NCBI GenBank assembly: GCA_002718995.2
Contig: PBGL02000027.1
Coordinates: 36,095 to 80,404, forward strand
Length of the DNA stretch: 44,310 nt
Direction: 5' to 3'
DNA from: Methanobacteriota archaeon
Lineage (GTDB): Archaea; Thermoplasmatota; Poseidoniia; Poseidoniales; Thalassarchaeaceae
Shown here: positions 41,571 through 44,310 of the stretch, piece after piece
How positions within the stretch are numbered: position 1 is the stretch's first letter
How the letters are laid out: each line of letters begins with the position of its first letter
The notes under the pieces: model-generated
What the model was told of the DNA's origin: nothing
The model's input: only the letters and a program-made list of their open reading frames with translations
Databases searched by the model: none
Translations under genes and position numbers: made by a program

Positions 41571-41593
41571 GGGTGTTCTCAGTTCGGCGGACC

Positions 41594-42997
41594 ATGGTCA
41601 GCCAAGAACAGATAGTTTTGGGGATATTCATCCTCTCATTCGTGTTAATTCTCTCAGAGGTAGTCCATAGGACAATAGCCGCATGGTTCGGTTCTGTCCT
41701 GATGCTAATTTACGGCCATTGGACAGGAGTATTCCACCTCCATGAAGAGTACAACTCAGCCGGTCAATTGATCGATACTTACACACTTGAGCATACCATG
41801 TTGGGATGGATTGAGTGGGAAGTTATTGGCCTGTTACTGGGGATGATGATTTTCGCCTCAATTTTGGAGATATGCGGATTCTTCGAGTATGTTGCTATCA
41901 AGGCTTCGAAGATGAGCAAGGGTGACCCTTGGAGGTTGATTGTCCTCCTCGGAACCTTCACCACATTGCTATCTCTTGTCATCGACAATGTCACTGCGAT
42001 CATCATCATCGCTCCTGTGACTTTGAGGATCTGCAATAAATTGGAGATTAATCCAGTCCCCCCACTGCTCGCAGAGGCAATCCTGTCCGACACCGGTGGA
42101 GTAGCATCGATGGTAGGCGACCCTCCCAATGTCATGATTGCTGCAGCCGCTGCTGATGCAACTCCTGCTTTGGAAGCTTTCTCTTTCAATGGCTTTCTTT
42201 TCAAGCTAGGTATTCTAACATTCATTGCATGGGTCGCAACTCTGACTTACTTCAGGTGGTACTACAAGGACTGGGCGGAGCAGAAGTCACCACACGTCGA
42301 CCTTCTTATGGAAGAGGATGAGTGGGATGCAATCAACGACAAGCAGCTGATGTACACGACTCTCTTTATTCTCGGCATGACCGTAGTAGCGTTCTCCGCT
42401 AAATCTCTTCTAGATCTAGAGATAGAGATCGATGGGATAGCCCTAGCAGGTGCTGGTTTCGCACTGATTGCTGCCAGGCCGGGGGAGGAAATCAGAGAAG
42501 GATTCATCAATGACGTAGTAGAGAAGGTCGAGTGGCAAGCGTTGCTGTTCTTTGTAGGGCTATTCTTACTAGTCGGAGGAATTGGCGATGTAGGCTATCT
42601 CGATCAGGTCGCCAACTGGATTTTCGATAACTTCGGAGATGACGAAGTCAAGCTCGCCATAGCTATCATCTGGGTCTCTGCAATAGCCAGTGCCCTGATT
42701 GACAACATCCCATTCACAGCAGCCATGATTCCGGTAATCTTCAGTATCACCGAGGCCAGTGGAGGGACTCTGAGCCCAGAGCCCCTACTATGGGCACTGG
42801 CAATGGGGGCTGGATTCGGTGGAAATGCGACTCCGATTGGATCCAGCGCCAATGTGATGACTGTAGCAATCAGTGAGCGTTCGCCGTATCCGATAACTAC
42901 GAGAGAATGGGTCAGAGCAGGGTTTCCCGTGATGCTGATCACATGCTGCGTGGCGACCGTTTTCATGTACTTCTTCCATGGCGCACTGTATTCTTGA
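41594..42997 (+). CDS. NhaD/ArsB-superfamily sodium/proton antiporter-like permease
   Basis: 467 residues with about eleven to twelve hydrophobic spans, a normal size for the ion-transporter superfamily (NhaD, ArsB, P protein). The two inverted halves each carry the signature loop. In the first it is SDTGGVASMVGDPPNVMI at about 165-182, after VIDNVTAIIIIAPV. In the second it is GGNATPIGSSANVM at about 408-421, after LIDNIPFTAAMIPV. The paired 'DNxxxTA' segments and 'G(D/S)xxN' loops mark the substrate site. NhaD-type sodium export would fit a marine cell, but ArsB-like export of oxyanions cannot be excluded from sequence alone. The ATG at 41594 was chosen over GTG at 41573 because a TATA-like box sits 27 bases upstream. 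Confidence 0.88.
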   Translation: MVSQEQIVLGIFILSFVLILSEVVHRTIAAWFGSVLMLIYGHWTGVFHLHEEYNSAGQLIDTYTLEHTMLGWIEWEVIGLLLGMMIFASILEICGFFEYVAIKASKMSKGDPWRLIVLLGTFTTLLSLVIDNVTAIIIIAPVTLRICNKLEINPVPPLLAEAILSDTGGVASMVGDPPNVMIAAAAADATPALEAFSFNGFLFKLGILTFIAWVATLTYFRWYYKDWAEQKSPHVDLLMEEDEWDAINDKQLMYTTLFILGMTVVAFSAKSLLDLEIEIDGIALAGAGFALIAARPGEEIREGFINDVVEKVEWQALLFFVGLFLLVGGIGDVGYLDQVANWIFDNFGDDEVKLAIAIIWVSAIASALIDNIPFTAAMIPVIFSITEASGGTLSPEPLLWALAMGAGFGGNATPIGSSANVMTVAISERSPYPITTREWVRAGFPVMLITCCVATVFMYFFHGALYS

Positions 42998-43017
42998 CCA
43001 CCCTTATGAAGCAAGAA

Positions 43018-43032
43018 ACCCCCTCGGGGGGT
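43018..43032 (+). promoter_or_regulatory. GC-rich hairpin one base before the start of the repeat protein
   Basis: ACCCCC-TCG-GGGGGT is a perfect 6-bp stem with a 3-base loop, separated by one C from the ATG at 43034. It lies 21 bases after the antiporter stop, so it may instead help end that transcript. The G run could also act as the ribosome-binding site when unfolded. Confidence 0.5.
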
Positions 43033-43033
43033 C

Positions 43034-43396
43034 ATGCCCGAATGCGCGGTTTGCGGTTTGGTGACCACTTCTTCGTCATGCCCAGTATGCGGAAGTGCGC
43101 CATCCAATGAATCAGCAAGACCACAATCATCACTTTTGGCAGAACAGGAAGGCGGAAACGCGTTACCATTCGGTTTAGATGCGAGAATGGAAGATTCACA
43201 TGATCCACCAATCCCTTTCGGTCTAGAAAAACTCCCAGAAAGAATTGAAACTAGTAAATTGGCCTTCGGATTGGAAAACTCCCCCTCAGAGGTGGAAAAG
43301 GAAGGGAAAAATGTCGTAATTGGTGGACCGTCTAAGGATAAATCTAATGATAATCTACTATTCGATTTGTCCGATTCCCCTGTGAGTGGAGAATAA
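43034..43396 (+). CDS. Small zinc-ribbon protein with 16-residue repeats
   Basis: 120 residues, not recognised as a known family. The N-terminus is a compact zinc ribbon: CAVC at residues 4-7 and CPVC at 16-19. From residue 45 to the end the protein is built on an exact 16-residue period: PFGLD at 45, PFGLE at 61, AFGLE at 77, a weak NVVIG at 93 and LFDLS at 109. The segments between are acidic and polar and probably disordered. The short F-G-L-acid motif looks like a peptide that docks to another protein several times. No membrane span is seen, so it is cytosolic. It lies between the antiporter and the 23S rRNA gene on the same strand. Confidence 0.7.
   Translation: MPECAVCGLVTTSSSCPVCGSAPSNESARPQSSLLAEQEGGNALPFGLDARMEDSHDPPIPFGLEKLPERIETSKLAFGLENSPSEVEKEGKNVVIGGPSKDKSNDNLLFDLSDSPVSGE
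43166..43393 (+). repeat. Five 48-base coding repeats (FGL[DE] motif)
   Basis: The motif starts at codons for residues 45, 61, 77, 93 (degenerate) and 109, always 48 bases apart. Base identity between copies is low, so the period has been kept at the protein level. The final copy is cut short by the stop. Confidence 0.65.
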
Positions 43397-43656: not shown

Positions 43657-44310
43657 GAATCACAAGATGCTACAACCCGACTGGGGGATGGCTCGGCTCG
43701 AGAGCCGAAGAAGGTCGTGACAAGCTGCGATAAGTCGCGGGGAGAGGCATGAATCTCATGGATCCGCGAATTACCGAATTGGACCTCCTGGCACTCAGTG
43801 CCATTCCTCTTTATTGTAGGAAAGGGAACCCCCCGAACTGAAGCATCTCAGTAGGGGGAGGAATAGAAATCAAGAGAGATTCCGTTAGTAGTGGCGAATG
43901 AAAACGGAATAGGACAAACCGAATCCCCTTGGGAAACCTTGGGGAGATGTGGGGTAAGGATCGTCTGTAGCCTAATTCTAGGAAGTGGAAGTCGTCCTGG
44001 GACGGCGCACCAAAGAGGGTGAAAGTCCCGTACACGTACTAGATATGGCCAAGTGACGACACCAGAGTAGCGTGCGTTGGATATCGCGCGTGAATGTGGG
44101 AGGCAGATACTTCCAATCCTAAATACTACTCGAGACCGATAGTTGACAAGTAGCGTGAGCGAAAGCTGAAAAGTATCCTTAGCGGGATGTGAAAAGACCC
44201 TGAAACCAGTCGGGAACAAGCTGAATAGGCGTGAAAGCGAAGATATGAGCAGCGTCTATTCGTGCGTTTCGAAAAATGCCCCTGGGAGTTCTGATCATTG
44301 GCGAGGTTAA
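43657..44310 (+). rRNA. rrl: 23S ribosomal RNA, 5' part (cut by window end)
   Basis: About the first 650 bases of 23S rRNA. Landmarks in order are GGGGGATGGCTCGGC near 43682, GCTGCGATAAGTCGCGG near 43723, TAGTGGCGAATGAAAACGGA near 43888, CAAGTAGCGTGAGCGAAAG near 44147, and GGGATGTGAAAAGACCCTG near 44183. All are universally conserved domain I-II segments. The mature 5' end is estimated by alignment with the start of other 23S genes and may be off by about 10 bases. No 16S gene or tRNA precedes it; the upstream neighbour is a protein gene. An unlinked 23S is known in Thermoplasma and its relatives. ORFs inside this region are artefacts. Confidence 0.96.

Follow-up and report, generated by a model that had tools for sequence, protein, structure and literature searches.

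A zinc-ribbon protein of Poseidoniales with FGL-type motifs at a near-fixed pitch, and the same motif in a Cdc6/RFC-like ATPase

Next to the 23S rRNA gene of a member of the Thalassarchaeaceae (Poseidoniales), within the window (that is, the whole stretch of 44,310 nucleotides analyzed here), lies a gene for a 120-residue protein that belongs to a real small family, a description of which was not found. Behind an N-terminal zinc ribbon, its rapidly evolving tail repeats a hydrophobic motif of the type [LI][PLA]F[GD][LI]xx[AS]P, and in the genus of the window 40 of the 51 places at which this kind of motif was detected fall in only two proteins, the zinc-ribbon protein and an ATPase resembling Cdc6 and RFC. 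The reading that we prefer, with a probability of about 0.42, is that the gene product acts as a multivalent adaptor (or decoy) that would display a docking peptide for a receptor common with the ATPase.

The window gene, its motif copies, and its chromosomal slot

The features on which the analysis is based are the following.

41,573 to 42,997, + strand: CitMHS-type membrane transporter (PF03600, E value of 8.3e-76), conserved upstream neighbor by synteny
43,004 to 43,012, + strand: ttatgaagc, candidate TATA-like element, ca. 30 bases before the ATG
43,034 to 43,396, + strand: zinc-ribbon/FGL-repeat gene, open reading frame (ORF) of 120 amino acids (aa), stop codon included in the coordinates
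43,034 to 43,099, + strand: N-terminal Cys4 zinc ribbon (C4, C7, C16, and C19; CxxC-x8-CxxC)
43,163 to 43,189, + strand: motif copy 1, LPFGLDARM, proline absent at +6
43,211 to 43,237, + strand: motif copy 2, IPFGLEKLP
43,259 to 43,285, + strand: motif copy 3, LAFGLENSP
43,307 to 43,333, + strand: KNVVIGGPS, earlier claimed as a decayed copy, judged here not to be one
43,355 to 43,381, + strand: motif copy 4, LLFDLSDSP, its F being the 11th residue counted from the C terminus
43,660 to 44,310, + strand: 5' part of the 23S rRNA (RF02540, 529.5 bits), conserved downstream neighbor, cut by the window end

The first-pass annotation had described the ORF as a zinc-ribbon protein, and both its coordinates and the ribbon proved correct. 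The ribbon is the only conserved cysteine-bearing domain, and its four cysteines are unchanged in all 14 sequences of an alignment of the protein's relatives. In scans of Pfam and NCBIfam, all zinc-ribbon matches were below the cutoff, no TPR match was obtained (the ORF stops at 120 aa), and no model of the family itself was present in these libraries, which, together with the evenly spaced repeats, bears out the earlier suggestion of an unnamed family. Among the matches listed from open-licence articles, no title dealt with the protein or the motif (absence in print is not claimed), and the combination of “Poseidoniales” and “zinc ribbon” matched no paper in that literature. The tail had been called acidic, which it is, but only mildly, since its 98 residues contain 19 D/E versus 9 K/R.

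There are four motif copies (three FGL and one FDL), with phenylalanines at residues 46, 62, 78, and 110, i.e., at distances of 16, 16, and 32 residues, and three FGL were found in 0 of 200,000 shuffles of the tail. The five copies originally proposed at residues 45, 61, 77, 93, and 109 were counted from one residue before the F; four of them stand, but the supposedly decayed one at 93 (VVIGG) has no F, and the three closest aligned relatives have no motif there. Duplication of a 48-base unit as the origin of the array is unlikely by eye because the printed linkers between the motifs are unlike one another.

A first protein search matched 19 of 97 genomes, one of them (G065) weakly and with an internal stop, while a 14-sequence profile matched 77 of 148 genomes within the family, spread over 9 of its 11 genera, confirming that relatives with the repeat exist. 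These matches include both short forms and long forms with an additional C-terminal part (see below). In a sample of the class, an N-terminal profile matched 120 of 194 genomes. In what follows, genera carry g numbers, g1 being that of the window. The gene was found in 14 of the 16 genomes of g1, the closest relatives of the window protein being 57% (G007), 55% (G011), and 46% (G012) identical. The two genomes without the gene (G001 and G004) gave no 23S match either, so the slot stretch itself may be missing there.

At the loci where transporter, gene, and 23S rRNA were all found, the gene is flanked by the CitMHS-type transporter on one side and by the 5' end of the 23S rRNA on the other, and before this slot there are a YhbY gene (PF01985) and genes read as adenylate kinase and subtilisin-like. 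As noted in the first pass, there is no obvious partner among the immediate neighbors. The slot transporter is 98% identical in G007, G011, and G012, ca. 34 to 36% in other members of the genus, and 70 to 89% in several other genera, which suggests an exchange between two transporter types at this position. In G012, an extra 609-aa gene, by our reading a sodium/proton antiporter, is located on the opposite strand between the transporter and the ribbon gene (L022:10932-12761). Two genomes, G006 and G046, have two slot copies each, 23S included (L064 = G006:C21; L061 = G046:C4). The second slot protein of G006 is nearly identical to that of G021, from another genus, and the second one of G046 is a long form; we regard these as mixed assemblies, probably with contaminating contigs from another genus.

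The candidate TATA-like element is found about 30 to 40 bases before the start codon in the window and in short-form relatives, 34 of 40 of which have a loose 7-base version of it upstream. Related elements are CGACAGCATCAAG, found at 38 of 320 loci, many of which represent one and the same place, and TATAATAAAAC, in g6. The element may serve the gene as a TATA/BRE promoter of its own, with a transcript that has a short leader or none. Directly before the start codon (43,019 to 43,031) there is a short inverted repeat, CCCCCTCGGGGGG, kept in G007 and not in G011 or G012.

The motif in a Cdc6/RFC-like ATPase

The neighbors give no obvious partner, but a genome-wide motif search does give a lead. 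In the genome of the window, a DNA pattern for FG[ILMF][DE]xxP matched 7 places (2 with the reversed control). The window gene holds 2 of these and a 620-aa ATPase 1, and the other 4 are in short, non-coding-looking open frames. For the 16 genomes of the genus, the pattern FG[ILMFV][DENK]x[AS]P gave the 51 places mentioned above versus 12 for the reversed control; the zinc-ribbon gene accounts for 25 of them, judged by their position, and the ATPase linker for 15, of which 13 were read as protein and two (G005:C44 and G009:C39) were recognized from their letters, while the 11 elsewhere correspond to background. We therefore rejected the idea of a motif common to many proteins of the genus, since beyond these two proteins the matches are background. 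When the pattern was relaxed and applied to 31 genomes of other genera, the matches listed were also mostly background.

The ATPase of G015 has PPFGISDAP, outside the pattern, so that all 16 genomes of the genus carry the ATPase motif. In G010, PFGIEDAP appears letter for letter in both the zinc-ribbon protein and the ATPase, and either G or D is used at the same motif place in the two proteins. The ATPase has one copy, in a predicted-disordered linker that is poorly conserved around it. Across 64 named loci, the motif was found in 14 of 14 (L201 to L214), in 6 of 6 of a second group (L215 to L220), where it takes the form FDI[ED]x[ASI]P, and in 0 of 44 more distant ones, at least five of which end before the site. 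All four ATPases read of g9 have it (G042, G023, G033, and G051), and in g11 two (G053 and G035) have the variant LPFGVI[KE]QP (LPFGVIEQP in G035), with no motif seen in G124, G025, and G044. The ATPases read of g4, g6, and g7, genera that do have the zinc-ribbon array, showed no copy, and the 7 ATPase linkers of the other family that were read, out of 12, contained no FG[IL]xx[AS]P.

Given its absence from the distant loci and from the g4, g6, and g7 ATPases read, the ATPase link cannot be the ancestral function of the zinc-ribbon array. Most genera with the array showed no such motif in the ATPase; a real link would then be a later addition, made in g1 and g9 and perhaps in some of g11. The case of G035, with the ATPase variant and no ribbon ORF in the slot (six frames read), speaks against strict pairing.

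The ATPase itself occurs in nearly all Poseidoniales genomes searched, with an ortholog in 58 of 60 genomes of the family and in 13 of 13 further genomes, 12 of them from the other family. Its structural model contains a confident AAA+ domain (residues ca. 26 to 255) and a C-terminal winged helix (ca. 540 to 618), far apart in the sequence and with unreliable relative placing (pTM of 0.44), while the motif region has a pLDDT of <50. The top Foldseek matches were Drosophila Cdc6/ORC and RFC, followed by NB-ARC, Aeropyrum Orc1, MuB, and TnsC, with 10 to 18% identity among the matches listed. Sequence profiles gave Pfam scores below threshold for AAA_22 (22.6 versus a cutoff of 27 bits) and ORC-CDC6-like (19.7 versus 27), nothing above the cutoff in NCBIfam, and 13 weak matches of the ATPase core profile to PDB sequences, which were AAA+ proteins and designed or leucine-rich repeat chains. 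The ATPase shares the AAA+ fold with Orc1/Cdc6 and RFC, and the C-terminal winged helix with Orc1/Cdc6, but differs from them in the long linker between domains and in a probable Walker B segment, read as LIALDYP-like, without the usual Glu. Only the similarity of the modeled fold suggests a role in replication.

Also in the linker, QGTL[ED]DF (L202:4102-4122) is present in 11 of 11 genus rows of the alignment versus 0 of 27 other rows, and strings similar by eye occur in four g9/g11 ATPase sequences; we take this island to resemble a PCNA-binding PIP box. In three wider loci, genes that by reading are SMC, ScpA, ScpB, and a separate Orc1/Cdc6 are found near the ATPase, a neighborhood that is part of a generally conserved gene order. 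At L195:8948-11115, the last four bases of the ATPase gene are shared with a 99-aa ORF, which has no NCBIfam match and adjoins the ATPase gene in 29 of 30 loci (L088 to L117); its product is a possible partner of the ATPase.

One could argue that the zinc-ribbon protein is a multivalent adaptor but that the ATPase motif is a look-alike with a different receptor. With a motif so short, the reversed pattern produces about one chance match per genome (12 in 16 genomes), and both the g4, g6, and g7 ATPases and the unpaired variant of G035 fit such a coincidence. Nevertheless, the ATPase copy is kept in every genome of the genus (15 by pattern plus G015) and reappears as the FDI form in all six loci of the second group, and both proteins use G or D at the same motif place. 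We consider this alternative rather unlikely.

Pitch of the array and descent from a long form

Across the 41 short forms we found 139 instances of the motif, roughly [LI][PLA]F[GD][LI][DE]x[AS]P and mostly 15 to 16 residues apart, with 2 to 6 copies per tail (up to 6 in G116, from g4). Residues at positions 0 (F in 127 or Y in 12), +1 (G in 110 or D in 29), and +2 (L/I in 131) were set by the search string itself; outside it, there was L/I at -2 in 123, P at -1 in 88, and P at +6 in 97. Counting related genomes separately, the distances between motifs (n = 103) were 16 in 50 cases, 15 in 16, 26 to 33 in 32, and others in 5, two of which (4 residues) look spurious. For seven hand-picked clade representatives, exactly 16 residues separated the motifs in 11 of 18 distances versus a mean of 0.71 at random placement, a value never attained in 20,000 random placements under a null that ignores inheritance. 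An alignment of four close relatives showed 19 invariant columns out of 24 in the motifs versus 5 out of 77 in the linkers, the motif columns being picked by the motif itself.

Random spacing among relatives had been named beforehand as the outcome that would speak against the first-pass annotation; the spacing is non-random, although not always 16. A near-fixed pitch is thus a family trait, with distances of 15 to 16 in g1, g4 (first pair), g6, g7, g9, and g11 despite differing linkers, and with exceptions in g4 (27 to 33) and in part of g1 (15, 29, and 16). Such regularity would be expected if the pitch mirrored a partner with repeated sites (a ring or filament), so that one tail would run along one oligomer instead of gathering several free partners, and the spacing shared across these genera and by the long forms (see below) points in this direction. 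The wide gaps in g4 and part of g1 argue against it, and inheritance without indels could also preserve the pitch, so that we hold this version to be unlikely.

In the other family of the order, the five slots read (G060, G061, G063, G081, and G091) all hold a long protein, as does that of G022 (g8), with 400 to 490 aa; long forms were also found in g3, g5, g8 (G107), and the second G046 slot. They consist of the ribbon, two LPFG-like motifs, and a TPR-like C-terminal part, which reached the Pfam cutoff in G019, the only one so tested, and was assigned by look in the others. The script scored the motif pair as 14 to 15 residues apart in 9 of 11 long forms, the exceptions being one of 13, where a neighboring string was caught, and one with a single motif matched. 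A search of 12 genomes from the other family with LPFG[IMLF]G returned 37 matches versus 10 for the control, and the 30 with loci were in the ribbon/TPR-like protein or else, by eye, in enzymes, membrane proteins, and unlikely frames.

The window protein has in common with the long slot protein the Cys4 ribbon (CxxC-x8/9-CxxC in the alignments), the place between transporter and 23S, and two LPFG-type motifs 14 to 16 residues apart. The long protein differs in its size (ca. 400 to 540 aa), its TPR-like part, and its motif, LPFGxG versus PFG[LI][DE]x[AS]P in the short form. Since it lacks the C-terminal TPR domain, we call the window protein a derivative and not a long-form member. The best interpretation is a protein that has dropped the TPR part and acquired further motifs, the first two of its motifs presumably being inherited from the long form. 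Five g10 loci (G098, G099, G024, G052, and G043) and two of g11 (G025 and G044) had no ribbon ORF in the slot after ORF filtering. Together with G035, this points to an apparent loss of the gene in g10 and in some of g11, which makes it dispensable. In the simplest history, one branch of the family of the window would have lost the TPR part and gained motifs, and the gene would afterwards have disappeared from g10 and some of g11.

For a single pair, dN/dS was 0.44 by NG86 (0.263/0.597) and 0.86 by YN00 (0.330/0.385), so that the two methods disagree and give no proof of purifying selection on the protein as a whole. The higher value, the missing TPR-like part, and the slots without a ribbon ORF would all suit a functionless, decaying remnant of the long protein, but the cysteines and motifs kept while linkers change, the frames open in all 41 short forms read, and the up to six motif copies in g4 make this very improbable. 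We also considered that the FGL tail might mimic the ribosomal stalk and bind elongation factors, and discarded this idea on the basis of the stalk tails of the same genome: archaeal P-stalk tails are also acidic, with F, G, and L, but these end in GGFDGLGDLFG and GGFEGLGSLFG, in another order and spacing and only at the C terminus, and the window tail has no GLxxLFG-type sequence.

A possible docking peptide

Multivalent scaffolds of short linear motifs are a known general kind, and hubs built of repeated linear motifs are well known from eukaryotes. The window protein resembles them in its tail of repeated short hydrophobic motifs with variable copy number and differs in its near-constant pitch and in matching no described Pfam or NCBIfam family above the cutoff. 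It would be a variant of such scaffolds, and as judged from the sequence, the adaptor idea is plausible. The first-pass annotation had pointed out that such arrays usually bind several copies of one partner; this may hold here, although no partner was found.

According to our preferred reading, one receptor would bind the docking peptide of both the zinc-ribbon protein and the ATPase. The zinc-ribbon protein would gather several receptor copies, or span neighboring sites of an oligomer, and might either recruit the receptor or compete with the ATPase for it, in a setting that may be chromosome replication or maintenance. Motif columns kept while linkers change, the pitch, the synteny of the slot, and the presence of the motif in two proteins favor an adaptor. 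Against it, the ATPase motif was found by searching for the motif, the pitch is not universal, and the gene is dispensable. A more specific proposal, which we make only tentatively, is that F[GD][IL]xx[AS]P is a lineage-specific docking peptide for one receptor of the chromosome replication/maintenance machinery, of which the ATPase shows one copy and the zinc-ribbon protein a near-fixed-pitch array derived from a TPR-type adaptor, acting as a multivalent hub for, or competitor of, the ATPase. If the common motif does mean a common receptor, an orphan protein encoded beside the 23S rRNA would be tied to a Cdc6-like ATPase of the uncultured marine Poseidoniales, and the peptide would offer a direct route to the receptor.
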